64,000 bases of DNA from Natrinema gelatinilyticum (GCF_024266705.1 NZ_CP100758.1:62001-126000), one strand, 5' to 3'. Shown: positions 12,780 through 28,881, numbered from the stretch's first letter. A program made the numbers and translations. Notes: a model not told the origin generated them from the letters alone.

Positions 12780-12952
12780 ACGCAAGAGACCGAGATCTAT
12801 TCCGTGCCCCAAAGCACGTGGTGTTGACTGGTCCGAGTGCGTAGGAAGCCGAGTCCTGGGCAGTACAGCCCGACTGCCGCCAGGAGCGGCAGTCGGGAAA
12901 GCCCGCATAGGTGAATCTCTGTTTCACGCATCAGCGTTCCGAGGTGAATCCA
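12780..12952 (+). ncRNA. IS110 5' non-coding end, bridge-RNA candidate
   Basis: The 170 bases before the IS110 recombinase are non-coding and contain a perfect 12-bp hairpin (12869-12880 with 12886-12897, loop CAGGA). In IS110-family elements the non-coding end next to the recombinase encodes the bridge RNA that pairs with both target and donor DNA. Position, size and the conspicuous stem-loop fit; the binding loops cannot be assigned from one copy. Confidence 0.4.
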
Positions 12953-13951
12953 ATGTTCATTGGAATCGACGTGCACAAACGGTACTCACAAATCGCAGTA
13001 TTGGACGAAAACGGTGAGATTGTCGAAGAGGTTCGCGTCGAAAACGCGAACCTCGACGACTTTGCCCAGCAGTACGTTGGGTCAAAAGCCGCGCTTGAAG
13101 CGACTAGCAATTACTACCACATCCATGATACTCTTTCAGAGTATCTGGATGTGATCGTTGCTAATCCAGGCGAACTAAAGTTAATCTCCGACTCGGACAA
13201 GAAAACTGATCGCGTCGACGCGAAACAACTTGCTCGGATGGTTCGGTTAGGCTCGATTCCTGAAAGCTATGTTCCTACCGACGAGGTTCGGCAAGCCCGC
13301 GCACTTGTGCGCGGGCGCCAGAAGCTCGTTGAGAACCGGACTGAGTATGCGAACAAGATCCATGGTTTGTTGAGTGACCACGGGATCGCTCAGGAGGTGA
13401 AACCGCTGAGTGTGAAGGGACGAGAGTTCCTCGCGGAACTCTCGCTCCCGGCGCCGTGGGATGCGCTGTTGGAGTCGTATCTAGAGCTTATTCAGACACT
13501 CACTGAGCAGATTGAGTCGTTGGAAGCGGAGATCGAGGAACGGGCTGGGTCTCTGAAGGAGACCCAGCTCCTGATGACGATTCCTGGCGTGAGTTATTTT
13601 ACGGCGTTGACGATTTACGCGGAGTTGGGAGAGATCGCCCGGTTTGATCGGGCCAAGGAGGTCGTAAGCTACGTCGGGCTGAACCCGATAATCCGCGAGT
13701 CTGGCGACTCGCGGTTTGAGGGAAGTATCTCGAAACGAGGGTCAGGGCGAGTTCGGTGGCTGCTTGTTCAAGCGTCGTACACAGCGGTTCATACGTGCGA
13801 AGACGAGTACCTTAGCCGGTTTTACAACCGATTAGCCCGAAAGAAGAACTCGAAAACAGCGATTGTAGCAACCGCTCGGAAGCTGCTGGTTTCAATGTAT
13901 CATATGCTGGACCGTGAGGAGGTGTACGATCCACCAGGGGTGAGTGCCTGA
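12953..13951 (+). CDS. IS110-family transposase (DEDD recombinase)
   Basis: This 332-residue protein is a complete IS110 recombinase. The N-terminal RuvC-like DEDD domain starts MFIGIDVHKRYSQIAVLD, continues with LEATSNYYHIHD and the DKKTDRVDAKQLARM element. A coiled coil follows (LLESYLELIQTLTEQIESLEAEIEE) and then the IS116/IS110/IS902 C-terminal domain with MTIPGVSYFTALTIYAELG and SYVGLNPIIRESG plus the catalytic serine region GSISKRGSGRVRW. ATG 12953 is preferred because the domain begins there. A 260-base piece of a close relative lies at 35568-35830. Confidence 0.95.
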   Translation: MFIGIDVHKRYSQIAVLDENGEIVEEVRVENANLDDFAQQYVGSKAALEATSNYYHIHDTLSEYLDVIVANPGELKLISDSDKKTDRVDAKQLARMVRLGSIPESYVPTDEVRQARALVRGRQKLVENRTEYANKIHGLLSDHGIAQEVKPLSVKGREFLAELSLPAPWDALLESYLELIQTLTEQIESLEAEIEERAGSLKETQLLMTIPGVSYFTALTIYAELGEIARFDRAKEVVSYVGLNPIIRESGDSRFEGSISKRGSGRVRWLLVQASYTAVHTCEDEYLSRFYNRLARKKNSKTAIVATARKLLVSMYHMLDREEVYDPPGVSA

Positions 13952-14178: not shown

Positions 14179-15003
14179 TTAGAGTGGCTCACAGAGCGGT
14201 TCTATATTGGCGATGGCGAACATGAGGACGATCTCACGAAACTGTCGATACCAGCCCAGCGCTCGCACGGCGTCGCCGAGCGAGCGCTTCGTCGTTGAGT
14301 AGGAAGTTTCGGCCATCCAGCGCTGTGAGTAGCCTTTTGCCCGGATGAGCGCGTTATGTCCTACCGTGAGTGGTCTCGATCCACGTTGTAAGATGAGCGG
14401 TTCGACACCGAGCGCATAGAATTCGTACTTGGTGTGCCAGTTGTGGAAGGCTTTGTCAGCCGAGACGGACAGCAGGTCGTCCGCCGGAACGCGGACGACC
14501 TGCGGCCCAGTCTTCGTATCGTGTTTCCACCGTGCTGAGATATGCACGTCGAGAACAGCGAGTGAGTCTACATCGGTTAATGTCGTCACTTTCAGCGTCT
14601 GCACGTCACTTCCAGACCGCTGGCGGTAGTACGAGGAGGCTGAGCGGCGATCGAAGAACGTACTGTCGAGAGCTGCGTGACCAGACTGCGGGTGTTGCTG
14701 CGCTGAAACGCGCAGCAACGCCCGCCACACCCACATTTTGAGACGGTCGAACGATTTGTAGATCGTGGTGAACTCAGGAAGATCGTCTCGGTCTAAGCCG
14801 AGCACATCACGAATCTCGGTCATGTACTTCAGCCGATTCGGCGTTTCATGGTAGCTGTGGCCGTCTTCGAGCCGGAAACAGTGCAGAACGACGTGCACCC
14901 AGCGGGCGAACCCGCCGCTGGCGGGCTCGCCCGCGTGCTTCCCCAACGCTTGTTTGGCTAGGTGGCGACACTGCTCAACGAAGTCGAGGAGATCGACTTC
15001 CAT
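14179..15003 (-). CDS. IS5-family transposase (intact)
   Basis: The 274-residue DDE transposase has an N-terminal helical part (MEVDLLDFVEQCRHLAKQALGKH), an internal DLPEFTTIYKSFDRLKMWVWRALLRVS segment, the first catalytic Asp in HAALDSTFFDR, a second in SADKAFHNWHTKYE and the C-terminal RWMAETSYSTTKRSLGDAVRALGWYRQFREIVLMF that carries the catalytic Glu. No interruptions. Imperfect inverted ends with the core GAATAGC lie near 14159-14175 and 15058-15076. A deleted copy of the same element is present at 60722-61004. Confidence 0.9.
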   Translation of the reverse strand: MEVDLLDFVEQCRHLAKQALGKHAGEPASGGFARWVHVVLHCFRLEDGHSYHETPNRLKYMTEIRDVLGLDRDDLPEFTTIYKSFDRLKMWVWRALLRVSAQQHPQSGHAALDSTFFDRRSASSYYRQRSGSDVQTLKVTTLTDVDSLAVLDVHISARWKHDTKTGPQVVRVPADDLLSVSADKAFHNWHTKYEFYALGVEPLILQRGSRPLTVGHNALIRAKGYSQRWMAETSYSTTKRSLGDAVRALGWYRQFREIVLMFAIANIEPLCEPL

Positions 15004-15160: not shown

Positions 15161-16429
15161 TTACTTAGAGCTATCGCCGAATAATCGTCCCCACAGAGAG
15201 GATGGCTCTGAAGCGCTGTCACAGTCAGACATCGTCTCGGCTTGTCCTTCTCGAGTCTGCTCTATCTCTCGGTTACGCTCTGCAAGTTCGCTTTTGAGAT
15301 CCTCAACCGTTGCCTCAAGGTAATCGATACGCTCATTTTTCTGTTCGAGGGTAGCCTCGAGTTCGTCGACACGGTCGGTCAATAGCCGATTTTTCTCGAC
15401 CAGATACGCACGATTCTGATTCCGTTCCGATTTATCACCGGTGTCAGCGGTCGACGACTCGCTCGTTCTGGGAACAGATTTGGTTGATGCCTCTCGAGTA
15501 TCGGGATCGTAGAACTCAGAGGTACTCGCAACCGCTCGCTCGATGGTCTTCTCGCCGTACGTAGAGCTGTCAGCGTAGTGGACTTCATCCCACTTGTCTC
15601 GGAGCAACCCCGATTGGCGGAAGAGTCGGTCCATTTGCTGTTGATCATCGCCAGTCCAGAACGCCAGCAGACAACACAGTGCCATATCCGCTTCTGACTG
15701 ACTCTCGTAGCCGGCAGTCGAGCCACGCCACAACCGCTCGAACTTCTCGCCGTTCGATGCATTCCGCGCTCGCTCGAGCAGATCCTTGTCCTCGAGGTCG
15801 ACATCGGTATGGGCTGCACTGCCCGTCGTTTCCGTCTCGTCCCCAGTGCGACGGCTCACAGATTCATGCTCTGGATCTGGTTCGGGGTCTTGGACGTACT
15901 CACGGTGGATCGCTACCAGTGCGTCCTGTCGACGTCCGACACGAGATGGCGTGTCCTCAAGGCGGTCGCCGGTAACAGTAAAAAACCGAGCTGTGTCGTA
16001 TAGTTCGATACTTCCTCGACGGTTCCGACCTAGAGGTAACTCTCCTTTGATGAGCACATGATACCCAGTGCCCGACGGAGAGATTTCCGTATAGGAATCG
16101 AGGCGCTCGATGATATCCAGCGCTGTTTCGTCGACGTCGCCGCTTTCGGGATCTCGACAGTCATCCAGATCCACGCCGACGATTGGATCGTCGTCGGTAA
16201 AGACGAAGCCGATGCCATCGGCGTTCCCTGTGTCAGCGTACTCGAGCGCTGTCTCGAACGACGCCCATGTTTCGGGATCCGTCGATGACGCGAACGCATC
16301 ACTGCCTGGCGTCACTGGTATCTTCGTTGGCTTCCCATCCCGAAGTTCTTCTTTCCAGCACACCCACTGGTCACGATCTCGCAAATCTGCTGGGAGTACT
16401 GTTCTATCGAATGATGGTGTAGAACTCAT
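15161..16429 (-). CDS. NrS-1-like archaeo-eukaryotic primase-polymerase
   Basis: From ATG 16427-16429 the protein has about 422 residues. The N-terminal domain (to about 190) is a primase-polymerase of the AEP fold: DQWVCWKEELRDGKPTKIPV, catalytic VGVDLDDC, and SGTGYHVLIKG with the active-site His. A helix bundle follows (DMALCCLLAFWTGDDQQQMDRLFRQSGL), as in phage NrS-1 polymerase, where it binds the template. The C-terminal third is a long coiled coil and a short tail. It makes primers or copies short ssDNA. Being last in the T4SS gene block, it likely primes the transferred strand or plasmid replication. Confidence 0.85.
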   Translation of the reverse strand: MSSTPSFDRTVLPADLRDRDQWVCWKEELRDGKPTKIPVTPGSDAFASSTDPETWASFETALEYADTGNADGIGFVFTDDDPIVGVDLDDCRDPESGDVDETALDIIERLDSYTEISPSGTGYHVLIKGELPLGRNRRGSIELYDTARFFTVTGDRLEDTPSRVGRRQDALVAIHREYVQDPEPDPEHESVSRRTGDETETTGSAAHTDVDLEDKDLLERARNASNGEKFERLWRGSTAGYESQSEADMALCCLLAFWTGDDQQQMDRLFRQSGLLRDKWDEVHYADSSTYGEKTIERAVASTSEFYDPDTREASTKSVPRTSESSTADTGDKSERNQNRAYLVEKNRLLTDRVDELEATLEQKNERIDYLEATVEDLKSELAERNREIEQTREGQAETMSDCDSASEPSSLWGRLFGDSSK

Positions 16430-16796
16430 TGGCAATACCCCCGAGGGGCACTTACTGAGTCCCTCGAACAAACTATATCAGAATATGGATAGAAGTGCCA
16501 ATTCTGTGTATGGTGTCTAAGCTGCCTGTCCCCACATCGTTCTGCGGGATGAACCCAGTGTAGACTAGTTGGTTGTGGATCGAATTTGTGCGTGGACAGC
16601 GCTTCCGTCATGCGATTCTGGCTGGACACCCATGTCCATGCAGTTTGTGTGGCCGCCCAGTCTGCGTGGACAGATGATTGAGATGTGCAATTATGGCTAT
16701 CCAAGGCCCTGTACTGGGCAGTACTGTAGATTGAGTACCACCGGCAGCGAACGACTGCTGAGATACGATTAACATGTGTCATATGGATGGTAGGTC
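16430..16796. other. Intergenic gap between the primase and the coupling ATPase
   Basis: About 370 bases without a supported gene. Composition is mixed; it contains CCAATGTG-like and GTACTGGGCAGTACTG (near 16710) palindromic pieces. The gap suggests that the primase has its own promoter. Confidence 0.35.
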
Positions 16797-19700
16797 TCAT
16801 TGATCGAGCAGCGCGTTCCCCTCCTGTGTCAGGGTCAGACCGATGTAGAACTGGACACGCTCTCCGTCTACTCTAGACCGATCGGTCTCGAGATCAACGA
16901 CGTTCCGTAATTTCCGGGTGAACCAGCCCTTGGTCGTTCCGTCAATGTTCTGCTGGTCAGTCCAGGTAGCATAGGCCTGAAACAGATTGTCCTGCGGCAC
17001 CCTTGCACCCTCAACCTGCCTGACGTACATCGCGGTGAACGCTTCGACACCGTCCCCATCAGGATCGATGTCCACTGTCGCATTCGTAGCTGGTGGATCA
17101 GATTCTACCGATGGTGATGACGAACCCTCGCCAAAATCTGCCACCGTACCAACGGCTTGAGGCGACTCAACTGTAGATTCACTGGGCCACAGATTCTCGC
17201 GATCTGGATTCTCGGGTAGCGGATACGTTTCTCCATGCTGGAAAAGCAATGGATCACCGTCGGGTGGTAGAATCACCACGAGATAACTGTCTCGTGAATA
17301 GTCTGCGTTAGGGAGATCGGTGGCTGGGATGAACGGTCGTTTGATTGGCGTCCAATCCTGTTTGAAGTCGGCTTTTGAATCGTATACATGACTCTCACCA
17401 GTCTCATAGACGGTGTACTGTCCGGTTTCCCGGTCGTGACTGTAGTACGCCGGAACGCTATCCTTCGAAAGCGGTCTATCGTCTGGAACGCGGGCCAACT
17501 CTATTTCACCATCAGATAGAACACGGTCCTCGCCCTCACGAATCCAGACCGTCCGATTTGACTCGGATATGCGTGGCCGAACAGCGGTTACGCCACCGTG
17601 AGCTGTTGCGCCACCGCCAAACGTCACGATCTCATCGCAATTATAGAACTGCTCTGTCTCGTCCGCTCGTTCGCGCAGTGGCGGCAACAGGATGTTCTCG
17701 ACCCGCTTAGCCCACTCAGTCTCAGGGTCACCGGGACGGACAACGAAGATCGGAATTCGCTTCTCCTCGTGAGCGCGTTTGAGATTCTGCAGGACCTTCG
17801 CGGGACGGTCAGGCGTCGTCGTCTCGGCCTCGATATTGAACACACCGTCGTGGACTGGGTGCGTCGCAGTGGCGTCAGGTTGTTCGCTCCCGTCTTGCTC
17901 AAGGATTTCGACACTGAACCCGCGTTCGGTAAGCGCTACCTCAGTATCCATGAGCAATGCATCGTGGCCGGCCCCGCCGGCCGATCTGACGGTTCCTGTC
18001 TCGGGTTGTACCTGTGTTTCTCCCTCGTCAGTGAGGCGAACAACGATCTCGTCATCCTGCAGGTCAACGTCGATCAATCGCGATGCGTCACGCACGTCGG
18101 GCAAGTCTTCGTGTGCATAGTCAACCTCGAACTCGAGTTCGCTATTCTCGAGTCGCACAGACAGTTCCTCATCGACAGCCGTGACATCGATCCAGCCGTT
18201 TTCCGTTCGCACGCCCTTCCGGATTTGGACCGTGCGAATTGCGTCGGCCATCGTCTCGTCGAGTATCTTCGTCGGATTGGCTGCCTCGTTCGCGTCGCTG
18301 TAGATGAGGTTCCGGAGGATCTCAGCATCTGTCAACGGTTCCGTCCCGTAGCGGTCCAGGCTCTGCTCGATGACGTCATCGACTGCATCAGCTGTCCGAA
18401 GCGGAGGATACGGCGGGAACGAGTTGAGGAGGACAGGTTCGGAGTACCGACCGCCGTCAAGAGGCAGTTTCGTCCAGGCCTGATACTGATCAGTCGAGAT
18501 AAGGTCCTCCGCTGTATAGCCCTGGAACCGTTTCATCAGGAGCTGGGCGTCGTCGACATCGTTGACCGAGAACGCAAGGAGGTTATCACAGTTGTTCTGC
18601 ATCGCTTTCAGTGTATCCTCATCAAACTGCGAGGGATACTGAGAAGCGAGCGTCACCGATAGTCGCATCGATCGAGCCCGGGCCAGCATCGACTCGATAT
18701 CAAGATTGTCGCTCGCGATATCGTCGAACTCGTCACACACGACGAAATAGGGGTCTGGATCGGTATCCCGTTCGTACGACCGGTGCTGAATGGCACTCCA
18801 GAGGTTGCGCATCACGCCAAGCGTGACCATCTTCTTGATGTCTGTGTTCTCGACAGGCGTTCGAACGATGACGATCCGGTCGTTGTCGATGATGTCTCGG
18901 AAGTCGATCGTACTGTCTCGATGGGCGATGATCCGGCGGATCACCGAATTTTCGACCCACGACTTGATCCGTTTCAGGAGTGGCCGGACCGTCTCTTCTT
19001 CCATGTTCGCGATCTCGAGACAGAACTCCCGGATATAGGGATTCTCAACGTCGAGTGCGAAATCTTCGCGTCGTTCGGCGTTGAGCAACGTGAAGTACAT
19101 ATCGATGACCGAGAACGGTTTCTCCGATTTCATCATCGCACGAGCTATCGTCTCGGTAATCGCCTCCATATTGATGCCCCAGTAGTCAGACGTGTCGAAG
19201 ACCGCTTTCAGATTCTCGACCCGACCTTCGATCTCGTTCTCGAGTTCCTCGATCGTCTCACACTCGGGCACCTCGAGGAAATTCATCCCGACCGTCTTCT
19301 CGTGCGTTGTCGATCCGGGCTCGATCCAGATCACGTCCTCGAGACGGTTTTCGGGAAGCTTCCTGAGGAGTTCGCGCGAGTCACGGCCTTTCGGGTCGAA
19401 GTAGACGAACCCATAGCCCGAATACGCCCACTGGACCATCATATTCAGTAACGCCGTGGTTTTCCCGTAGCCCGTGGTCCCCGTAATCCAGATATGGCGA
19501 AAAAGCGACTCGAAGCGAAGCGGTGCTTCACGGAACCCCCGTTGTGGATCTTCATCGTAGCCGATCCAGAGCGGGACAGCAGATGAATCTGGATCGGCAC
19601 CTGCCTCGAACATCTCGCGGATGTACGATCCTGCGACGGTGCCTTCACTGTCTGTATCAGATATTACAGACTTCCCACCGACGAAGGTCGTGTCTCGTTC

Positions 19701-19862
19701 GACGATATCATACGGTTCACCGAATCGAGATTGGAGAGCAGATGGTGACTCGGACAGTGATTTCTCCTCTTCGATGGCTCGTGTTCCTGAATTTGTCTCT
19801 CTACCTTCTCCCGCTGACGACTCAGCGAATTCGGTGCGATCGAAGAAGCGGTCAAATACCAT
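16797..19862 (-). CDS. VirD4/TraG-like coupling ATPase with C-terminal extension
   Basis: The 1021-residue protein (ATG 19860-19862) is the DNA-pumping coupling ATPase of the conjugation system. Walker A GTTGYGKTT lies near residue 127, followed by FVYFDPKGRDSRELL. Walker B PYFVVCDEFDD is near 372 and the sensor-like SVTLASQYPSQ follows. Residues 560-870 are beta-rich and resemble a nuclease-like or substrate-contact region. The last 80 residues (FTAMYVRQVEGARVPQDNLFQAYATWTDQQNIDGTTKGWFTRKL) look like the winged helix at the C-terminus of P4/D5-type plasmid primases. Its start overlaps the next gene by 11 nt. Upstream in-frame starts would add a non-acidic leader read from the neighbour and are unlikely. 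Confidence 0.85.
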   Translation of the reverse strand: MVFDRFFDRTEFAESSAGEGRETNSGTRAIEEEKSLSESPSALQSRFGEPYDIVERDTTFVGGKSVISDTDSEGTVAGSYIREMFEAGADPDSSAVPLWIGYDEDPQRGFREAPLRFESLFRHIWITGTTGYGKTTALLNMMVQWAYSGYGFVYFDPKGRDSRELLRKLPENRLEDVIWIEPGSTTHEKTVGMNFLEVPECETIEELENEIEGRVENLKAVFDTSDYWGINMEAITETIARAMMKSEKPFSVIDMYFTLLNAERREDFALDVENPYIREFCLEIANMEEETVRPLLKRIKSWVENSVIRRIIAHRDSTIDFRDIIDNDRIVIVRTPVENTDIKKMVTLGVMRNLWSAIQHRSYERDTDPDPYFVVCDEFDDIASDNLDIESMLARARSMRLSVTLASQYPSQFDEDTLKAMQNNCDNLLAFSVNDVDDAQLLMKRFQGYTAEDLISTDQYQAWTKLPLDGGRYSEPVLLNSFPPYPPLRTADAVDDVIEQSLDRYGTEPLTDAEILRNLIYSDANEAANPTKILDETMADAIRTVQIRKGVRTENGWIDVTAVDEELSVRLENSELEFEVDYAHEDLPDVRDASRLIDVDLQDDEIVVRLTDEGETQVQPETGTVRSAGGAGHDALLMDTEVALTERGFSVEILEQDGSEQPDATATHPVHDGVFNIEAETTTPDRPAKVLQNLKRAHEEKRIPIFVVRPGDPETEWAKRVENILLPPLRERADETEQFYNCDEIVTFGGGATAHGGVTAVRPRISESNRTVWIREGEDRVLSDGEIELARVPDDRPLSKDSVPAYYSHDRETGQYTVYETGESHVYDSKADFKQDWTPIKRPFIPATDLPNADYSRDSYLVVILPPDGDPLLFQHGETYPLPENPDRENLWPSESTVESPQAVGTVADFGEGSSSPSVESDPPATNATVDIDPDGDGVEAFTAMYVRQVEGARVPQDNLFQAYATWTDQQNIDGTTKGWFTRKLRNVVDLETDRSRVDGERVQFYIGLTLTQEGNALLDQ

Positions 19863-21000
19863 CCTGTCCTCTCGTGGCAACGTTCTGGTGGTTGGAACTG
19901 CTACGATCGGCGGCTTGATCGTATTGCCCGACGTCAGCAGGGACTCGATCACCACGTTGCGTATATCGCCAGTCGATGTTCGGTGTCTCGATCTCCGCAT
20001 TTGGGATGTGGGCAACGCCCGCGAGTTCATCGACGGTCATGATCATGTGCCGATCAATCCAGTCCCGATTGCTCATTCGCTGGACGAACCGTCGAAGTCG
20101 GTTGGCCCGCTTTCGTTTCCTGCGATGCCAGACCGGGATATCGTCGAGCCCCTGCTCGGTGACCGCGTTGTAGTACTTCCTGAACATGCCTGCAACACCG
20201 CGCGCCCGAGCCTCGGCTTCGTCCTGCTCCGACGACGCTGTGAGGACCCGGATGTTGACGTGAAACGCCTGTTGGCCGCGTTGCTGTTCGATCGTCTTCG
20301 CTGCTTGCTTGTCCTTCGCGCTTGCCGGTCTCGTCCGTGGATTGAGCCAGCCGACGGATGTTCCCTGGCAGAGGGCGTATGCGAGTTCGTCGACGCTATT
20401 GTGTTTGAATCGATCGCCGTCGGTCCAGGACCGTTTTGCAGGTCGGAAGACGACCTGAGTGACGACCGTACTATCGTCAAGCGACAGCATCTCGCTCGTG
20501 ATCTCGCCGTATGGATCCGTCTCAAAACCTTCGCTGTTATGATGGCGTATCGGGTAGTAGGGGATCTTCTCCATCTCGAGCCAGGCCCCAGCGACGTACT
20601 CGTCAGGCTCGATGATGGGGAACGCATGGCCATCCTCGACGCGGAAGACCTCGCTGTTGGCGTAGTTGTTCCCGACGCGGCGGCGGAACTTGTCGGCAGC
20701 TGCGTCGGTGGCTGCGTGCATATAGAAGCAGATCTTTCCCTCGTCGAACCAGACCTCGAACGAGTGGTGATCGCTCGTGTTCTTCCCGCGGAAATTGGTG
20801 GTCACGTCGTGGACTGACTGGAGCAATCCGGCTCCATCCACGACTCCCTCGTTCTCTTTGTAGGGACGGATCCGCAGCAACGTTCCGGGGGTGTCCCCTT
20901 GCCGTTGCACGAACGGTTCTCCGCCTTCGAAATCGAGTTGCGTTGCCTCGTACTGTGGCGAGGAATGGAACACCTCCGTGAGCCGCCCAAACGGAGACAT
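19852..21000 (-). CDS. T4SS-associated soluble protein between coupling ATPase and VirB4
   Basis: The 382-residue protein starts at ATG 20998-21000: MSPFGRLTEVFHSSPQYEATQLDFEGGE. Beta-alpha structure with an embedded THDVT-like strand region (LLRIRPYKENEGVVDGAGLLQSVHDVTTNF) and a middle part FEVWFDEGKICFYMHAATDAAADKFRRRVGNNYANSEVF resembles N-terminal regions of HerA/VirB4-type transfer ATPases that have lost their motor. No Walker motif is present. The gene lies between VirB4 (4 nt) and the coupling ATPase (11-nt overlap), so it is translationally coupled to both and is probably an adaptor of the transfer machine. I do not have a firm family name. Confidence 0.7.
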   Translation of the reverse strand: MSPFGRLTEVFHSSPQYEATQLDFEGGEPFVQRQGDTPGTLLRIRPYKENEGVVDGAGLLQSVHDVTTNFRGKNTSDHHSFEVWFDEGKICFYMHAATDAAADKFRRRVGNNYANSEVFRVEDGHAFPIIEPDEYVAGAWLEMEKIPYYPIRHHNSEGFETDPYGEITSEMLSLDDSTVVTQVVFRPAKRSWTDGDRFKHNSVDELAYALCQGTSVGWLNPRTRPASAKDKQAAKTIEQQRGQQAFHVNIRVLTASSEQDEAEARARGVAGMFRKYYNAVTEQGLDDIPVWHRRKRKRANRLRRFVQRMSNRDWIDRHMIMTVDELAGVAHIPNAEIETPNIDWRYTQRGDRVPADVGQYDQAADRSSSNHQNVATRGQDGI

Positions 21001-21004
21001 AGCG

Positions 21005-24000
21005 TTAGTCGTCACCCCCTGTTTCGGTGGTCTTTCGCTCGGTCGATGATGGTGACTTACCACCATCTGCCTGGACACGCGCTTCGTCAGCATCGGTTCC
21101 ATCAGACCCCGTCTCGTCCGAGGCGTCCTCGAGCGCCTGATCCACGACCGCTTCGAGGACCTCCTCTTTGGACAACTCTCCCTCGAGGACATCTTGTGCC
21201 TCGGCTGTAGTGAGATCGAACCGTGTCGCGAGCGCGTTCTTCCGGGCTTCCCTCTCGACAAACTCTTCGAAGGCGAGCAGTTCCGCTGGTTCGTCGCTAA
21301 TCGATTGCTCGATGAATGTTCGATCGGCGGGTTCGTATTCGATAACACGCGTCTCGAACTCGTCGGCGATGACGTGCAGCGGATACGTTCCATGCTCCTC
21401 GACGCGGACGAGCGACTGGCTGTACCCGAGATCCTCTTTCCCGGCATCGGCACTTCTGACGTACCGGCGTTGTTCTTCCGTCAAGCCGATTTTGTCAGCT
21501 GTCCCATCGTCCAGATCGGGGAGCTTGTGGAAGACCTTGATCGGACACATGCCGATGATTTTCTCTGCTTGGTCGGTTTCGTAGAACTCCTGGGCTGTCT
21601 GGGAGAGCAACACCATTCGAAGGCCTGCGTGACGCTGGTGACGGAACGCCGTCTCGAGGAAATCGAGATTCGCCTGATCCTCGAAGAGATAATGTGCTTC
21701 GTCGATCGCCAACTCCACGTTCCGATCAGTGTTTTTCGCCTGCTGGTAGATCGTCGACAGCAGCAACTGCATCAGGAACGTCTGGCGGTCGATCCCCGAT
21801 GCACTTCCCTCGATCTGGCCGAGATCGATATAGACGACTTTGTTATCGCCCTCGAGGATGTCGATCTCGGAGCGATGTGAGAGGTTTTCGTAGGCACCGC
21901 CTTCCCGGAACGGCTGGAACGCGATTGCAAGTTCATCTGCGTACCGAGCAGCGCGTTCGCGAGCCGAGGCGGAGTCTGCGATATTGTGTTCGTCGGGGTT
22001 CTCCGCGATACCACAGAGGATTCGGTGGACGTCTTGCATCGTCGGTGAGTTCGCCGGCGTATGCGTCGAGACGTCGTCCTCGACGATCCCTGCCTGGCGA
22101 TAGACCTCATCGATTACATACGAGAGGACGCCCGTTTCGGCTCCGAGATCGATATCACGAGCGTCGAGAAAGTTCTCGAGCACAGCGGCAACCTCGTCTT
22201 TCTTCGCTGACAGTGGTGAGACCCCATCAGTTGATTCGAGGACGTGTTGTGGCGTCTCTCTGATCTCGAGTGGATTCAATTTGGTCTCGCCACCGACGGT
22301 AATCGTTTTTGCGTTCAGGGCATCTGCGATGCCACGGAAGCCACCGACGGGATCGACGAGGACGAGCATGGTATCGTTGCGGCGTTTCATCATCCGGAGA
22401 TGGCGCATGATTCCGCCGAACGTCTTCCCGGCACCGGGCATGCCGACGACGAGTTCGCTGTGGCCGGTCTCGAGGTCCCACGGATCGATCCGAATCGGTG
22501 ACCCGTTGTGGCCGTGATAGCCGTACTCGATACCCTCGTCCATCATCAGGTAATTCGACGAGAAGGGGAACATCGCGCCGATCGCCTGATTCGTCAGCGT
22601 CGACATCCGGTCGCGACCGAGTTCATTCGTCCCGAGTGGCGAGACCGTTGCAAGCCCGCGTTCCTGCCACCGACTCGCGACTTTGAGCGTACAGTTCGCC
22701 GGGGCATCCTTGATTATCGACCGCAGGCGCGTCGTCTGATTGTCGAGGGCGTGTTCACTGTCGGCCGCCAGTCGAATGAACACGCCACTGCGGTAGAACG
22801 AAGCTTTGTTCGCTCGGACGAGTGATCGCATGTACTTCGCCTGATCGATGTCCTCCTGGAGATCCTCGGCTTTGAGGCTGTGCGAGTCGTGTTGGTTGAT
22901 CTTCAAATCTGAGATCCAGTCCGCCATCATATCTTGTGCCGACTGGCTGTCGAACGGATCGAGATGGATGCTGATGTCCGTCTGCAAGTCGGTTTCAAGC
23001 AACAGTCGCTCGAGAAGACCGTCCGACGGCTCTTCGGGGAACTGTTCGATCCAGAACGTTCGGACGTAGGTTTCGTCGTTGATCACGGCGTAGGTTGTCT
23101 CCCAATCGACTGTTGACGGAGCGATAACCGACTGGTGCATCGTCGATGGTTCAGGCAATTGATCCTCAGCAGGAATCGAGTGTCCATCGTCTGCGTCTCT
23201 GTCATCAGTATCTTCTGGAGATTTGCTCGAGTTCGTTTGTGAGCCGTCGTATCCAGTGGAATCGAGCGTCACTGCCCCATCATTACCCATTTCGCGGGAG
23301 ACAACCGGCAGCGTACCGAGTGCCTTCGTGAAATCGTCGTATTCCTCCGGTTGGCACGTCCAATATTCCTTCGTGAGACGAGCAAGGTCCGAGGCGTCGA
23401 CGGGACTAATCGAACACCGATATAGCGATGAGCCACCGCGGCGAAGCTGTGTGAGTCTGGACTCGAGTCGCTCTTCTTTGAGCTGCTCGCGCTCGGCTTC
23501 GGAGAGGCCATCCGACTGAAATCGCTCGAAAAGACGCCCAATGATGGGTACTCCAGCGAGATAGGCGAGAACACTATCACCCGTCTCGTCGAACTGTCCG
23601 ATGTCATCGTCGGTGACTGCGGTGATGAGGTAGTACTCGCGGATCGTCGTCGTAGTCGAATCGAGATCACCGTTATCTGTCGTGTTCGCGCCAACGTATT
23701 CCTCGAGAAGCCGCTTCAAAACCGGTCGCGACCGAACGTCAGCATCTCCGAGTCGGTCACGATGTGCCCGGACGACATCGTCCGCATCCACTTCTCGACT
23801 GGTGATGTAGACCTTCACCGGAAAATCGAGCGTCGAGTTCGCGAATTCCGAGAGCGACTGGACGGCTTTCGCCCACGCATCATCGTTCTCGAGAGCCATG
23901 TTTGCTGGTTCGACTTTCATCGCACCGACGAGTGCGCCATCCGTACGTTCGACAGCGTGGGGATAGACACGCTGCAAACGAGTCAAATACCGGATCTCGT

Positions 24001-24322
24001 TGCTATCTTCATCGCCGTGGGTGTACTCCTTGTTCTTGATCGCCCAGTTGAGGCGAGCGACGAGCCACTCGGTGAGCCAGAGATAATTGGGTTTCACCTT
24101 GTGGAGCAAGAACAGCAGCGTCGTGAGTACGATTCCAAGTCCAAGTATGGGAATCGTCAGTGCTGCCGGAACGAACGTCGCTGCAATGACGGTGACGAAC
24201 GCCACCGTGAGGAAGAGCATGAGCTCGCCGATCGTGTACCCCCTAAAGAACGCCGTTGTTCCACCCAGCGACTGGTGGATCTTTCGTGCGCTATACTCGC
24301 TGTCCGCTGTGTTTGTGCTCAT
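21005..24322 (-). CDS. VirB4/TraC-like T4SS ATPase with N-terminal membrane segments
   Basis: The protein has 1105 residues from ATG 24322. Two N-terminal membrane helices (ELMLFLTVAFVTVIAATFVPAALTIPILGLGIVLTTLLFLLH) look like a fused VirB3/PrgI-like segment. An insertion-rich VirB4 N-domain follows, and then the motor: Walker A GMPGAGKTFGG near residue 627, Walker B VELAIDEAHYLFED near 870, and LRMVLLSQTAQEF after it. The tail is acidic with a degenerate coiled coil. It powers pilus assembly and substrate movement at the inner face of the membrane. It stops 4 nt before the next gene starts and its start overlaps the VirB6-like gene. Confidence 0.9.
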   Translation of the reverse strand: MSTNTADSEYSARKIHQSLGGTTAFFRGYTIGELMLFLTVAFVTVIAATFVPAALTIPILGLGIVLTTLLFLLHKVKPNYLWLTEWLVARLNWAIKNKEYTHGDEDSNEIRYLTRLQRVYPHAVERTDGALVGAMKVEPANMALENDDAWAKAVQSLSEFANSTLDFPVKVYITSREVDADDVVRAHRDRLGDADVRSRPVLKRLLEEYVGANTTDNGDLDSTTTTIREYYLITAVTDDDIGQFDETGDSVLAYLAGVPIIGRLFERFQSDGLSEAEREQLKEERLESRLTQLRRGGSSLYRCSISPVDASDLARLTKEYWTCQPEEYDDFTKALGTLPVVSREMGNDGAVTLDSTGYDGSQTNSSKSPEDTDDRDADDGHSIPAEDQLPEPSTMHQSVIAPSTVDWETTYAVINDETYVRTFWIEQFPEEPSDGLLERLLLETDLQTDISIHLDPFDSQSAQDMMADWISDLKINQHDSHSLKAEDLQEDIDQAKYMRSLVRANKASFYRSGVFIRLAADSEHALDNQTTRLRSIIKDAPANCTLKVASRWQERGLATVSPLGTNELGRDRMSTLTNQAIGAMFPFSSNYLMMDEGIEYGYHGHNGSPIRIDPWDLETGHSELVVGMPGAGKTFGGIMRHLRMMKRRNDTMLVLVDPVGGFRGIADALNAKTITVGGETKLNPLEIRETPQHVLESTDGVSPLSAKKDEVAAVLENFLDARDIDLGAETGVLSYVIDEVYRQAGIVEDDVSTHTPANSPTMQDVHRILCGIAENPDEHNIADSASARERAARYADELAIAFQPFREGGAYENLSHRSEIDILEGDNKVVYIDLGQIEGSASGIDRQTFLMQLLLSTIYQQAKNTDRNVELAIDEAHYLFEDQANLDFLETAFRHQRHAGLRMVLLSQTAQEFYETDQAEKIIGMCPIKVFHKLPDLDDGTADKIGLTEEQRRYVRSADAGKEDLGYSQSLVRVEEHGTYPLHVIADEFETRVIEYEPADRTFIEQSISDEPAELLAFEEFVEREARKNALATRFDLTTAEAQDVLEGELSKEEVLEAVVDQALEDASDETGSDGTDADEARVQADGGKSPSSTERKTTETGGDD

Positions 24323-24327
24323 TGGAA

Positions 24328-25539
24328 TCACCACCGCGAGACCTTCTGTTTCGTGTTTTTGAATCCGCGCTTCGCTCGAGTCGATGCTTTCTGACCGGCA
24401 TTCCGGGCGTCTTCGGCGGCTTTATCCCGCATTCGGCCATACTCCGATTTCCGAACTGTGTTGTACTGGCCGACGTGGGTTTTCGTCGCTTGAGCCGAAG
24501 AGCCGAGTTTGTATGCCTTCGAACCGCCGCTTCCGATGGTCGTTTGACCACTCTTCGTTACTGCGCCAAACTGGTTGTCCGCGTATCCTCGATGGACGTT
24601 TCGGGCACCTCTGACAGCTGACCCAGGAGCGCTTTTGGCTTTCCTCGCCCCGGCTGCAGCCGCTGCAGGGTTTGACGAATAGGCACCTCTCTGGGCGATG
24701 GTTCGCATCGCCGGACTGCTCCAGTAGACCGTCAGAAGCATCGCAATAACTGCTGCAGGGATTAGCGTCAACCCAATGAACAACGAGAAAAGTTCGCTTT
24801 GACCGAGAGTCTCAACTCCACCGATCTCCCATCCAATTCGGAAAAGTAGTGCGGCCGGGATTCCTGCAAGCACTAAGCCAGGATAAATCCCAGCTGCTCG
24901 GCGAGCCATGTTTGCAGCTGGTGTAAATGGCCAGATTTCAACAGCCCAAACGACACCAAGTAGCGGCATCGTAACCGTTAACACAAATATTCCGACCCAA
25001 CGGAGAGCAACGATGAATCCTGCGATGACTAACAAGGCGTTCGATATACCAACCATCGCTAGAATCGAAAATGTCCCTCCAAGAGTGGCCTGAATTAGAC
25101 CCCCAAGCCCCGCTGACATTTCTTCAATTGGAGCGATCGTCATTCCAATCGCGTTGATGAATTGTAGCGGAATGGACACTAATGGGAACCAGACAAACGT
25201 TCCCATAAACACTAGAATTAGACGTCTGAGAAGGTGTTTTCGTCGGTATTCGCTCATAGAACCAGATCGAAGTCCGATGAACGAGAGAGCAATAACCACC
25301 AACATAATTGTCAGTGGGAGAATGTATGCTAAATACACGTCCTGGTACAGACTTGTCCAGGGTTCTTCGCTTGGAGTACCAACGACAATATACTGCGAAT
25401 CCGAAACGGGTGCTGGAACACCGACAATTGGGCGTAATAGGGCTTCATAGACGTTGTTTACGAGATTGAGAAGTGCAGAGGCGATATCATCCAAAACGTT
25501 AGTTATTGCGTTTTCGACTTCCTCTTGAAGCCATCCCAT
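24328..25539 (-). CDS. VirB6/TrbL-like polytopic membrane protein
   Basis: The 403 residues start MGWLQEEVENAITNVLDDIASALLNLVNNVYEALL, an amphipathic leader, and then have about six membrane helices between 85 and 290 (AYILPLTIMLVVIALSFIGL, LILVFMGTFVWFPLVSIP, LLVIAGFIVALRWVGIFVLTVTMPLLGVVW and others). The C-terminal 110 residues are basic, Gly/Ala-rich and probably cytosolic. This layout with a conserved RW-x-GIF motif inside a hydrophobic stretch matches VirB6/TrbL, the channel component of type IV secretion. Its stop is 0 nt from the lipoprotein gene and the following VirB4 gene overlaps its end. Confidence 0.8.
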   Translation of the reverse strand: MGWLQEEVENAITNVLDDIASALLNLVNNVYEALLRPIVGVPAPVSDSQYIVVGTPSEEPWTSLYQDVYLAYILPLTIMLVVIALSFIGLRSGSMSEYRRKHLLRRLILVFMGTFVWFPLVSIPLQFINAIGMTIAPIEEMSAGLGGLIQATLGGTFSILAMVGISNALLVIAGFIVALRWVGIFVLTVTMPLLGVVWAVEIWPFTPAANMARRAAGIYPGLVLAGIPAALLFRIGWEIGGVETLGQSELFSLFIGLTLIPAAVIAMLLTVYWSSPAMRTIAQRGAYSSNPAAAAAGARKAKSAPGSAVRGARNVHRGYADNQFGAVTKSGQTTIGSGGSKAYKLGSSAQATKTHVGQYNTVRKSEYGRMRDKAAEDARNAGQKASTRAKRGFKNTKQKVSRW

Positions 25540-26397
25540 CTAATTCCCACCTCCGTTCGATTGTGATGCACCTGAACTCCCATTTACGATTGAGAGGTTA
25601 CACGACTGCCCTCCGCTGTACTTGATCTGCTGTGTATAGGTTGGGTTATCACCAATCTGAACGACAGCCATCACCGTCATCGGCTCTGTTCCTAATTCGC
25701 TGCAATCGAGCGAACCAGTTGCACCGCCAGTCTGATAGATTTGGCTAACTGAATACACGGTAGTCTTGCCGGCCGGGAGTCGTGTTTCATGGTAGTATGA
25801 GATCGTGTCATCCGTCCCAAGCTTCGCAGCCGGCGCTCCCTTCCACCGGAGTTCTGTGAGCATTGAAGGAATCGTCCCTTCATTCTCGATAACGACTGCC
25901 GCATATTCGTCCCATACAGGCGAATTCTTGTCCCACTCCATGTCGGGATTTTCCGCCGCCCAGAGGACGTCTGTAATCGTACAGTCGGCCTCGAGCGTGA
26001 TCGTCGTTTTTTCGATCGTCTCGTCTTCATCGAGGGCGACCAATTCGTACTCACCAGTGGAGAGATCATCGGTAAACCGGCCCAGAATTTCGAACGATGT
26101 CTTGGTTTCTCCGTTTGCGAGACGCTGTTGGTCAGCCAGTTCTCTGTTCGGATCGATGAGATTGATGGACTCGACGGAGGTACCGTCGGCAACTTCAACT
26201 TCGAGATGAGTCCCGTTCATCTCGATAGAGGCGAACACGTCACTGCCGTCAGCGCTGAGCCCATTTCCGCCGGACGTATCATCGGTATCGTCTGATCCAG
26301 ACATACAGCCGGCAAGCACAGTTGTACCAATGCTGAGGCTGGCAAGGACTGATCGGCGAGCGATTCGACTAGTGTCTGTCTTTGGGTCTTCTGTCAT
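25540..26397 (-). CDS. Tat-exported lipoprotein of the conjugation operon
   Basis: The 285 residues open with a twin-arginine signal, RRSVLASLSIGTTVLAGC, so the protein is folded before export and is then lipid-anchored to the outer face of the cytoplasmic membrane. The mature part is acidic with Thr/Ser-rich spacers and a beta-sandwich pattern (GTHLEVEVADGTSVESINLIDPN..., ...KTTVYSVSQIYQTGGATGSLDC). Two Cys near the end (residues 247 and 271) may form a disulfide. It overlaps the surface protein gene by 4 nt and stops just before the VirB6-like start. It probably takes part in the extracellular end of the transfer machine. Confidence 0.75.
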   Translation of the reverse strand: MTEDPKTDTSRIARRSVLASLSIGTTVLAGCMSGSDDTDDTSGGNGLSADGSDVFASIEMNGTHLEVEVADGTSVESINLIDPNRELADQQRLANGETKTSFEILGRFTDDLSTGEYELVALDEDETIEKTTITLEADCTITDVLWAAENPDMEWDKNSPVWDEYAAVVIENEGTIPSMLTELRWKGAPAAKLGTDDTISYYHETRLPAGKTTVYSVSQIYQTGGATGSLDCSELGTEPMTVMAVVQIGDNPTYTQQIKYSGGQSCNLSIVNGSSGASQSNGGGN

Positions 26398-28175
26398 GGT
26401 TTGTCTCGGAGTCCAAGGAGCGCACCGCCAGTCAGATAATCAAAGCCATAGACGGCCAGCGAGACTGGGATGAACAAGAAAATCGTTACAATGACTAACT
26501 GGACGAGCCGCTGAAAGTCGGGATAGTCTGGGGATGGCGCGACGCGATCCTCCGAAGCGGAGTACAAGCGGCCTCCATGCCACCATTCTTTTGGAACGTA
26601 TGTCCCATCGACGAGTGACGTGTACTGGCCGTCGAGTTCGAGAACGGCCACGCCGCTTGCGTTCACAGGTACCGACTGATTTCCAATTTTGACTCGACCA
26701 GTCGGTATTGGATCACCAGTAGCGGGATCCGTGACCGTCGCTCGAACGCGGGTTCCGGATGCATCCGCTTCGAGGATGGTTAGCTCGAGGTTCGATTTGT
26801 GAACCGTGCCGCCGTCTTCGAGAGGAATCGTCTGTGACTGTCCACGAACGATTCCGTGGACAGTCACCTCGTCGACAGAATCTGCCGGGAGCGTATCTGA
26901 TCGGACCGCGATTGATGTCAAGTGTACATACCGATCGACTGTTTCAATGCCGACCACGTCCGGGAGGGATGGTCCGCCCTGTTCAAGGCCCCATACTTCT
27001 TCGATGACCAGCGGTGGCTCAGCATCGTCCGTCGCCTTGCTCGGCATGTCCGGTCGCTTCTGCGTCGGGAGTGCGTGGATCTGGGCTGGACGGACAGATG
27101 AATTCCTGCGGGTAGTGTCCGTTTCCGTCCGAGAGACCATCGTATGCCAACCGTCAATTCCGGCGGAGTAGAATCGCCAGTTCCCACGGAGTCGAGCATC
27201 GTCGCTGACCTCAATTGCCGACCACGTCGTTCCTGGATGAATGGCGATTCCAGTTCGATTCTCGTTGTTTTCGAACGTAACCCGCCTTCCAACGCTATCG
27301 GTAAACCGGTTGACAACCGTGTGACGGGAATCGGCCGCTCTTAGCCGTTCATCCTGATACTCGGTTTCCGTCTCCCACGACCCGTCACAGCGATCCGCAG
27401 TGCTATCGTACTCATCGCACGTCCCGATGTCGTGGCGAAGCTTCGCAGATATTTCGACCGCGACAGAGAGGTTTTGCGTTCCTGAGAGACCACTGTACTC
27501 GAAGGTGGATCGGTGACTCGTGGTAGAGTCGATGACCCGACCGTTTGCTCGCAGTTCGACACGTTCAATCCCCGATTCCAGGACCGTCCATTGCTCTCGG
27601 GTCGATCCGTTAGTGTCGTCGTCTGGAGACTCGATTCGATAATCGGTTACCGCGAGCACGTCACCATCGGGGGCGATGTATTGGGTGGAGTGGTTCCTCG
27701 AGTGTACCACCGTCGAGGGCTGGATCGCAAAGATGCTGACGTACACATCCTGAATGGAGAGCCCATTCTCGAGTTGTGCCCCCTCGGGATGGACTGACGT
27801 TTCCGTATCACCTGGGTCGAAGTCCTGAAAATCGCCGTGATTCCAGGTTTCGACGTCTTTGGGTGGCTCGTCGAACGCGACATCAGTCGATCCTGCGAGC
27901 TTGGTGTTGAACTCTTTCCGTGAGGACGTGTTATTTGTGAGTAGCCCCCTCGAGCCGAGCCCCCGATCGAGGTCTTCCGACCATAATAGTGGGAATTGTG
28001 TCTCGTTCACGCCGTATGCAGGTCCGTCTGCAGGGATTACAGAACTCGAGTTCGAGTTCGCCTCGTTGGGAGTCGCCCCAGTTGGCAAGCTACCGATCCA
28101 TCCACTGGTGGCGAGAACGGTAAGTGCAAGTACGAGTGCGCGTACCGTCGTCCGTTGGGGTCGGTCAAGCAACAC
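26394..28175 (-). CDS. Large membrane-anchored surface protein of the conjugation operon
   Basis: The 593-residue protein starts with a signal peptide (VRALVLALTVLATSGWIGSLPTGATP). The extracellular part is long and acidic, with several beta-sandwich blocks (e.g. FEYSGLSGTQNLSVAVEISAKLRHD, DPATGDPIPTGRVKIGNQSVPVNASGVAVLEL near 500, an Ig-like fold). Near the C-terminus there is one membrane helix, LVQLVIVTIFLFIPVSLAVYGF, so the protein sits with its body outside. It overlaps the lipoprotein by 4 nt and lies 9 nt after the pilin-like gene. It may be an adhesin or a mating-contact protein. Confidence 0.75.
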   Translation of the reverse strand: MLLDRPQRTTVRALVLALTVLATSGWIGSLPTGATPNEANSNSSSVIPADGPAYGVNETQFPLLWSEDLDRGLGSRGLLTNNTSSRKEFNTKLAGSTDVAFDEPPKDVETWNHGDFQDFDPGDTETSVHPEGAQLENGLSIQDVYVSIFAIQPSTVVHSRNHSTQYIAPDGDVLAVTDYRIESPDDDTNGSTREQWTVLESGIERVELRANGRVIDSTTSHRSTFEYSGLSGTQNLSVAVEISAKLRHDIGTCDEYDSTADRCDGSWETETEYQDERLRAADSRHTVVNRFTDSVGRRVTFENNENRTGIAIHPGTTWSAIEVSDDARLRGNWRFYSAGIDGWHTMVSRTETDTTRRNSSVRPAQIHALPTQKRPDMPSKATDDAEPPLVIEEVWGLEQGGPSLPDVVGIETVDRYVHLTSIAVRSDTLPADSVDEVTVHGIVRGQSQTIPLEDGGTVHKSNLELTILEADASGTRVRATVTDPATGDPIPTGRVKIGNQSVPVNASGVAVLELDGQYTSLVDGTYVPKEWWHGGRLYSASEDRVAPSPDYPDFQRLVQLVIVTIFLFIPVSLAVYGFDYLTGGALLGLRDKP

Positions 28176-28184
28176 GGCTGGTAA

Positions 28185-28640
28185 TCAGAACGGTTTCACG
28201 CAGTCAGAGAAGCCAAAGCCCATCTGACTTCCGACTTTGTCGATGAGTTCGGGTGAGATGAGGGCGAGGACAATGATGCCGAATCCGATGCCCGACATCA
28301 CCAGGCTCTCTTTGGCTTTGGTCTTCTTCTCTGGATTACCACCAGCGCGCATGTACGACAGGCCAGCCCGACCAACGTAGAACCCAGTTGCGGGGAGTCC
28401 AAGCCCAGCAACGGCACCGAAGACGATGCCAATCCCCGTCTCGACACCGGTTCCACAGTAGACGTCACCCACGCTCGACTGGGCAGCTACTGATCCAGAA
28501 ACGAGACCGAGGAACGACACCCACATGGCAAGTGTGGTTGCCACCGGTACGACTCGTCTCCATGCTTGTCGGGCTCTAGTCAGCAAATCATGGTGTTCCG
28601 GCGATGATTCTGTCGACTTACGTGATGTATCTGTGTGCAT
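28185..28640 (-). CDS. VirB2/TrbC-like pilin candidate
   Basis: From ATG 28638-28640 the protein has 151 residues. It has a long basic leader, a hydrophobic signal segment (VVPVATTLAMWVSFLGLVSGSVAAQ) with AAQ/AQS cleavage-like site, a loop with Cys (VYCGTGVETG), then a Gly-rich hydrophobic helix GIVFGAVAGLGLPATGFYVG, a polar turn (MRAGGNPEKKTKAKES) and a second helix LVMSGIGFGIIVLALISPEL. Two short helices with a basic connecting loop are the VirB2/TrbC pilin architecture. It is the first certain gene of the block, in front of the surface protein. Cysteines at both ends (residues 69 and 147) may bond. Confidence 0.7.
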   Translation of the reverse strand: MHTDTSRKSTESSPEHHDLLTRARQAWRRVVPVATTLAMWVSFLGLVSGSVAAQSSVGDVYCGTGVETGIGIVFGAVAGLGLPATGFYVGRAGLSYMRAGGNPEKKTKAKESLVMSGIGFGIIVLALISPELIDKVGSQMGFGFSDCVKPF

Positions 28641-28881
28641 TGGTGCAGATATCTGTCCACGATGATTCGAACAACTGCTCAAAGGCTACACTCACAGTAG
28701 TCGCTCCGATCCAGTCATTGAACTCCATTCCAAGACAACGAAAAGCAGTCTCGGCGGAGGGCGGCTGTTCGGCCAGTGCATCTTGTAATCTAACGGAGGA
28801 CGCTATTGGACCGATTTGCGAGAGGCATGATACTGTGTTAATCAGAGGGGTGGTAGTGTCCATATTGAAGGTAACTTCCAT
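28618..28881 (-). CDS. Possible short protein upstream of the pilin gene
   Basis: An 87-residue frame (MEVTFNMDTTTPLINTVSCLSQIGPIASSVRLQDALAEQPPSAETAFRCLGMEFNDWIG...) overlaps the pilin start by 22 nt. The amino-acid pattern looks protein-like and helical, but there is no motif. If real, it would be the first gene of the operon. Low certainty because the overlap is unusually long. Confidence 0.3.
   Translation of the reverse strand: MEVTFNMDTTTPLINTVSCLSQIGPIASSVRLQDALAEQPPSAETAFRCLGMEFNDWIGATTVSVAFEQLFESSWTDICTNAHRYIT

Follow-up and report, generated by a model that had tools for sequence, protein, structure and literature searches.

Layout and gene content of the operon

The window, by which we mean the whole stretch of 64,000 nucleotides analysed here, corresponds to bases 62001–126000 of contig C3 (164,919 bp) of Natrinema gelatinilyticum, whose genome (5.44 Mb) comprises three contigs. 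Judged by sequence, C3 encodes ParA and two proteins of the Orc1/Cdc6 type, a set that would be expected on a haloarchaeal plasmid; the two Orc1/Cdc6-like genes lie near ParA at the start of the contig (L001:9702–11054 and L001:12626–13879), in what is probably the vegetative replication region. Because its two ends share no overlap, C3 is not shown to be circular. ORF calling yields eight intact minus-strand genes between 28640 and 15161, seven of which touch or overlap from 28640 to 16797 and encode, in this order, a pilin, a surface protein, a Tat lipoprotein, a VirB6-like protein, VirB4, an adaptor and a coupling ATPase; a PrimPol-type primase follows. A preliminary description of the window had reported the same touching or overlapping genes, all of which were found on the minus strand, within an operon spanning 15161–28881; its start is corrected here to 28640.

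The pilin (28185–28640, minus strand as are all genes below; 151 aa, three hydrophobic segments by hydropathy) matches the Pfam family PF18895 (T4SS_pilin; E 5.2e-9, 36.5 bits, above the cut-off of 26.6) and NF045849 (E 3.6e-8). The surface protein (26394–28175, 593 aa) has a signal sequence and a C-terminal membrane anchor and is conserved in all operons compared; no informative family was found for it. The lipoprotein (25540–26397, 285 aa) is of the Tat type, with a twin-arginine motif and a LAGC lipobox (RR...LAGC), and its position is conserved. The 403-aa polytopic membrane protein encoded at 24328–25539 yielded no match in profile searches, and its identification as VirB6-like rests only on topology (five hydrophobic segments) and operon position. 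VirB4 (21005–24322, 1105 aa), which has an N-terminal membrane part, exhibits the Walker A motif GMPGAGKT and the Walker B motif AIDEAH, and it matches NF045971 (E 1.8e-51) and NF045975 (E 2.4e-45), both below the respective equivalog cut-offs. The primase (15161–16429, 422 aa) is a NrS-1-like PrimPol enzyme without a helicase domain: it matches PF22763 (NrS-1 HBD; E 5.8e-32) and aligns to residues 1–385 of the 772 residues of phrog_1829.

The adaptor (19852–21000, 382 aa) matches the N-terminal part of phrog_5156 and the coupling ATPase matches the C-terminal part of the same family, while in distant relatives (L083–L085, L091) the two proteins are fused; we therefore regard the adaptor as a separate, split-off N-terminal half of the coupling protein. 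A relationship to the N-terminal part of VirB4, for which the preliminary description had proposed a check of this product, was rejected in the absence of any family match, and the protein was placed by the fusions instead. Most of the other early assignments held: the VirB2-like pilin is confirmed by profile, both ATPases (VirB4 with GMPGAGKT, coupling ATPase with GTTGYGKTT) are supported by profiles, and the NrS-1-like primase is confirmed in part, as only the PrimPol half is present; the VirB6-like protein rests on topology and position alone. The picture of haloarchaeal conjugation as relying on VirB4- and VirD4-like ATPases with small membrane subunits is likewise supported. As to the claim of a functional DNA-transfer system, it is supported by gene content, with transfer itself remaining an inference.

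The same operon order is repeated in L007, L008, L009 and L014, which argues that the arrangement is not due to chance; complete plasmids of Natrinema, Haloterrigena, Halomontanus and Halorussus carry it. In all, 327 plasmid records contain a VirB4 relative, and the coupling protein is present in 136 of the 293 genomes of the order. Gene content and profiles thus identify 28640–16797 as a genuine haloarchaeal plasmid conjugation operon, although its transfer between cells is inferred. Since the same gene order is seen on many haloarchaeal plasmids, the operon itself is not new; as such it is already known from annotation and surveys. A phage or virus origin was rejected, as no relative was found in viral contigs and phage records give only remote VirB4 matches. 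Two transposase genes (12911–13951 and 14179–15003) lie directly past the primase end of the operon, and the genes for a DNA-binding protein and TFB, found downstream in relatives, are missing at this place. Elsewhere on C3, three adjacent large genes (L002:5014–17527, i.e. C3:25014–37527) encoding proteins of 953, 1433 and 1782 aa, by eye a helicase, a methyltransferase and a helicase, are likely to form a phage-defence island.

A predicted nuclease domain in the coupling protein

The coupling protein (16797–19862, 1021 aa) combines an ATPase, a nuclease-like domain and a winged helix, according to Pfam, an AlphaFold model and PDB comparison. It matches PF10412, PF12696 and PF02534 (TrwB_AAD_bind, TraG-D_C and T4SS-DNA_transf) above the Pfam cut-offs, and no membrane helix was found in it. 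In the model, the motor (residues ~90–500; 18363–19595) has the VirB4/TrwB/HerA fold, with VIA-align Z scores of 16.7 for VirB4 (4ag6), 15.6 for TrwB and 14.1 for HerA. Matches of the PADLOC model "mad8" reflect this shared HerA-like motor and are not read as an indication of defence.

A Pfam search of the region between the motor and the C-terminal winged helix gave no match, and since the motor dominates the fold matches of the full-length model, the domain was compared as a model of its own. Residues 530–735 (17658–18275, minus strand) comprise a winged-helix-like segment with the secondary structure HHHEE, followed by a domain with the predicted alpha-beta-beta-beta-alpha-beta core of the PD-(D/E)xK superfamily. 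The top 18 VIA rows for the isolated domain, and most of the lower ones, are PD-(D/E)xK enzymes or their relatives, including VRR_NUC (Z 8.4), Hjc (8.1), PaqCI (6.1), FokI (5.1) and EcoRV (4.8), aligned at residues ~629–728. A Z score of about 8 is borderline for any single match, and Foldseek alone gave an E-value of only 0.036; despite these modest individual values, we make the assignment on the agreement between the fold matches and the motif. The motif is a variant, PD-X14-44-ExE, in which the usual Lys is replaced by Glu and the spacing varies from 14 to 44 residues among couplers. D663, E678 and E680, together with H633, Q656, P687 and N693, are invariant in 13 divergent couplers (25–58% identity). 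The fold is thus a prediction from the model, and nuclease activity is inferred.

The HHHEE segment and the nuclease domain are found in 128 of the 293 genomes, nearly always inside reading frames of ~1000–1600 aa, and in every locus opened the module lies behind an ATPase motor. Giant single-chain couplers of 2400–3300 aa (L083:8524–15747, plus strand; L084:3363–13244 and L085:2785–12378, minus strand) unite adaptor, motor and nuclease-like domain with 1000–1700 further residues, and the one in L084 shows a weak match to DnaG_N.

The order of an HHHEE segment followed by D-X14-ExE recalls the winged HTH and D...ExE motif of the MOB_C relaxase TraX. Three profile-profile comparisons with MOB_C (TraX, and Replic_Relax, PF13814) were nevertheless negative (hhalign probability <1%), and a search of the coupler with PF13814 found no match. 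Membership in MOB_C was rejected on these grounds, and the likeness is regarded as an analogy only.

A conserved cis site between coupler and primase

The gap of 340–370 bp between the coupler and primase genes contains a conserved non-coding cis site, consisting of iterons and the core CCAACTAGTATA. An ORF of 124 aa (16426–16800) covering the gap was rejected as a gene, because what is conserved in the homologous gaps is the iterons and the core, not a protein sequence. In the window the core CCAACTAGTCTACACTGG lies at 16555–16572 on the minus strand and is a candidate cut site or origin core; it is conserved in more than 30 loci and has a single copy on C3. It is preceded on the same strand by the iterons TGTCCACGCAGAC (16660–16672, position -101 of the core), TGTCCAGCCA (16619–16628, -57) and TGTCCACGCA (16589–16598, -27), with an inverted copy, TGTCCATGCA, on the plus strand at 16633–16642. 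The distances of the iterons from the core (-101, -57 to -59 and -27) are nearly fixed in more than 30 loci, and in some loci iterons occur up to 177 bp from it. The iteron unit varies between plasmids (TGTCCACGCA, TGTCCAGGGT, TGTTCAGGGC and others) and is uniform within a plasmid; in the distant L086 the iteron lattice is kept with TGGTCAGGGG, and L087 uses a unit of its own, TGTTACGGC. On C3, iteron unit and core occur only at this site and not in front of the operon. In most loci the core is closely followed by a GC-rich inverted repeat (AACGGGTTGCACCCGTT is one example; in the window it is GGGTTCATCCC, at 16536–16555), which could be a hairpin of the cis site.

The core pattern has 43 matches in the 293 genomes versus 1 for the reversed control, and comparison with the list of couplers places about three quarters of these matches 200–550 nt behind one. 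The core was not found behind the divergent nuclease-couplers of L012, L083–L085, L088–L091, L074 and L075, nor in systems of the pNG500 type (see below). The PrimPol gene follows immediately behind the site in intact copies, and in the window 142 nt separate the core from the start of the primase gene downstream. Orphan sites also exist, some of which keep the primase only and some the coupler tail and primase; a coupler tail with the winged helix is kept at the site in L013, L115 and L112. The remnants at L013:22668–25302 and L112:3421–5361 consist of the winged-helix tail, the iteron/core site and PrimPol, and the former shares its plasmid with a different, complete conjugation operon, which makes it a possible hitchhiking origin. 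L107 and L108 (core at 4008 and 4022) have the iterons, core and a primase match, partial in L108, with no coupler match within the 8 kb examined.

Covariation of the winged helix with the iterons

The C-terminal winged helix (residues 935–1021; 16800–17060, minus strand) is of the RFX/phage P4 alpha origin-binding type (VIA Z 12.0 for RFX, 1dp7, and 9.6 for P4 alpha, 1ka8), resembling both P4 alpha origin-binding and Pox_D5 domains. Across loci, iteron distance follows winged-helix distance with a partial rank correlation of 0.47, a value reached in 0 of 500 permutations; no correlation was seen between iteron distance and VirB4 distances or VirB4-normalised distances of the channel part. At the level of single positions, residue 979 in the recognition helix matches base 10 of the iteron in all 28 loci without exception (G/A in 14, V/T in 8 and S/C in 6). 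In L055 and L056 the iteron has T and the residue is Val, although the remainder of the coupler groups most closely with other iteron classes, a pattern that speaks against linkage alone. Part of the covariation may still be linkage, since the winged helix is encoded right beside the cis site and the primase gene, and the partial correlation does drop with distance from the cis site; moreover, the 28 loci are related, so that independent residue-base changes are few. The winged helix of each coupler thus appears to be matched to the iterons of its own plasmid. The covariation supports recognition, which we infer without binding data.

Search for a relaxase

The absence of a relaxase from the window, noted in the preliminary description, held and extends to the genome, in which nothing scored above the cut-off for seven relaxase families (PF03432, PF13814, PF08751, PF03389, PF07514, PF01076 and PF02486); a profile of the haloarchaeal MOB_P relaxase had no match in this genome either, C3 included. 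A PF13814 match at C3:9822–10070 was rejected, being under the cut-off (16.9 bits), restricted to the HTH part and located inside an Orc1/Cdc6-like gene. In pNG500 and its relatives, the adaptor and coupler are replaced at the same operon position by two RHH proteins, a MOB_P relaxase and a coupler with a TM anchor. Local profile searches found no nuclease domain in ten loci of this relaxase type and no MOB_P relaxase in more than 50 loci of the nuclease type or on the whole of C3. The MOB_P relaxase occurs in 28 of the 293 genomes, and among ~44 relaxase contigs at least two (G014:C3 and G057:C17) also have a nuclease-coupler, in each case >80 kb away.

The MOB_P cassette is also found free-standing on other plasmids. 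Stand-alone mobilisation cassettes of a small protein, a MOB_P relaxase and a TrwB-like coupler are present on haloarchaeal plasmids without a VirB4 nearby (L096:4010–6572, L097:4028–6609, L098:3794–6914 and L099:4022–6620), and the records listed for their relaxase are mostly typed as non-mobilizable in PLSDB.

A model for relaxase-free initiation and its rivals

Gene content and its conservation, the ATPase and winged-helix folds in the models, the predicted match to a nuclease fold, the invariance of its residues, the cis site, the residue-base match and the lack of a relaxase match above cut-off in the genome are computed results. Cutting and its position, the transfer of single- or double-stranded DNA, oriT function, transfer itself and iteron binding are all inferred. 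With this in mind we propose that the pilin, surface protein, lipoprotein, VirB6-like protein and VirB4 would build the mating channel, while adaptor and coupling ATPase would form a HerA/VirD4-like DNA pump, whose own PD-(D/E)xK-type nuclease domain (ExE variant) and C-terminal winged helix may stand in for the relaxase. The winged helix would read the iterons just behind its own gene, so selecting its own plasmid; the nuclease domain would nick or cut at or near the invariant core CCAACTAGTATA, with the cut expected in the window at or near CCAACTAG; the motor would then feed DNA into the channel, and the PrimPol encoded next to the site would prime the complementary or replacement strand. 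That the coupler is such a one-chain transfer initiator, docking on and cutting its own plasmid's site in place of a relaxase, is the reading we favour, by a modest margin. A bolder version, which we consider slightly less likely than not, holds that this single protein with ATPase, ExE nuclease and iteron-reading winged helix cuts a plasmid-specific oriT (iterons plus the core CCAACTAGTATA), takes the place of the relaxosome in the majority of the haloarchaeal conjugation systems sampled, and trades places with the MOB_P relaxase cassette where the VirB4 backbone is related.

The main rival concerns the cis site, which could be a vegetative, PrimPol-dependent replication origin, with the winged helix as the origin-binding part of a split primase/initiator; the coupler might then use the origin merely as an address tag, and its nuclease trim ends or resolve DNA after transfer. 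This remains possible. PrimPol lies immediately behind the site in intact copies and is kept at several orphan sites devoid of a coupler, two of which retain a coupler-tail winged helix, and on this evidence a replication origin fits as well. The resemblance of the winged helix to P4 alpha origin-binding and Pox_D5 domains points the same way, as do phrog primases that join a primase part and a winged helix in one chain. Against it, ordinary replication and partition of C3 can already be served by its two Orc1/Cdc6-like genes and ParA, the couplers compared have the winged helix in one chain with a conjugation ATPase, and the site lies at the end of a transfer operon.

The remaining alternatives appear weaker. 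Ordinary conjugation could depend on a relaxase that is encoded elsewhere and belongs to no recognised family, with a nuclease domain that is structural or inactive; our searches reach known families only, and unknown archaeal relaxases have been suspected (PMC3158045). We consider this unlikely, however, given that neither the seven families nor the haloarchaeal MOB_P profile had a match above cut-off in the genome and that the residues of catalytic type do not vary even between highly divergent couplers, which would be unexpected for a dead domain. There is still less to recommend the view that the cis site is an operator for the primase and the coupler an autoregulator, with transfer starting elsewhere: the site is indeed upstream of the primase and its core contains a TATA-like string, but the 142 nt between the core and the primase gene are far from the spacing typical of a haloarchaeal TATA element, some loci have iterons as distant as 177 bp from the core, and the site is present in single copy on C3 with none in front of the operon. 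Less probable still is an operon that has decayed or that serves protein secretion, vesicles or Ced-like DNA uptake. The two transposase genes abutting the primase end would suit decay, yet the ORFs are all intact, strongly conserved and in the same order on many plasmids, and DNA export is what the coupling ATPase, the primase and the cis site suggest.

Under the favoured reading, that of a one-chain initiator, the new element is a possible mode of DNA processing, comprising the nuclease-like domain of the coupler, its winged helix and the matched cis site, none of which was in the preliminary description. Neither the fusion of a coupling protein to a nuclease nor this cis site was found described in the open-access literature searched, a search that left out most subscription journals. 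According to recent papers, no relaxase has been identified for archaeal conjugation and the mechanism is unknown (PMC9905601, PMC12857230). The present analysis puts forward an enzyme candidate whose catalytic residues are predicted, a possible origin with its coordinates, a predicted rule for how protein and DNA recognise each other and, in the relaxase-bearing sister system, a natural control, so that the relaxase question can be put to the test with point mutants in a genetically tractable haloarchaeon. It may account for the cutting and transfer of such plasmids in the absence of a conventional relaxase, and could make it possible to type haloarchaeal plasmids, the majority of them currently classed as non-mobilizable, by their mobility.

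Comparison with known systems

The closest system for comparison is pNG500 of Haloarcula marismortui, the only archaeal plasmid that PMC3158045 has as conjugative. It shares the order pilin, surface protein, lipoprotein, VirB6, VirB4 (VirB4 45% identical). Unlike the window, it encodes two NikA-like RHH proteins and a MOB_P relaxase (PF03432, 28 bits; HRDTEFPHAH), and its coupler is TrwB-like, anchored in the membrane by four hydrophobic segments and without the nuclease domain, whereas the coupler of the window is soluble. The Sulfolobus plasmids of the pNOB8/pKEF type and Thermococcus pT33-3 resemble the window in having VirB4- and VirD4-like ATPases and no identified relaxase (PMC12857230). 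No recognisable pilin has been reported for archaeal conjugative plasmids (PMC9905601), whereas the pilin of the window matches a profile.

The elements of the proposed mechanism have separate counterparts elsewhere. The MOB_C relaxase TraX (pAD1/pTEF1) is of the PD-(D/E)xK type, as is predicted for the coupler, with a D...ExE motif and an N-terminal winged HTH that the HHHEE segment of the coupler resembles, and MOB_C relaxases bind five direct repeats 70–120 bp from nic (PMC12857230); in the window, by contrast, the nuclease is fused to a coupling ATPase and homology is undetectable by profiles. Streptomyces TraB/clt provides a pump whose C-terminal domain reads short plasmid repeats (PMC12857230, PMC5365140), as we predict for the coupler, although TraB is FtsK-like, independent of VirB4 and without a nuclease domain. 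A HerA-like pump acting with a nuclease and without a relaxase, as suggested here, has been proposed as HerA-NurA for the archaeal Ced/Ted systems (PMC9905601) and as TdtA-NurA for transjugation in Thermus (PMC5365140); the present case differs in placing pump and nuclease-like domain in one chain, with a predicted PD-(D/E)xK fold, a plasmid T4SS operon and a candidate cis site. By analogy, the mechanism we propose would thus follow the logic of MOB_C relaxases, of TraB/clt and of HerA-NurA, combined in a single polypeptide.
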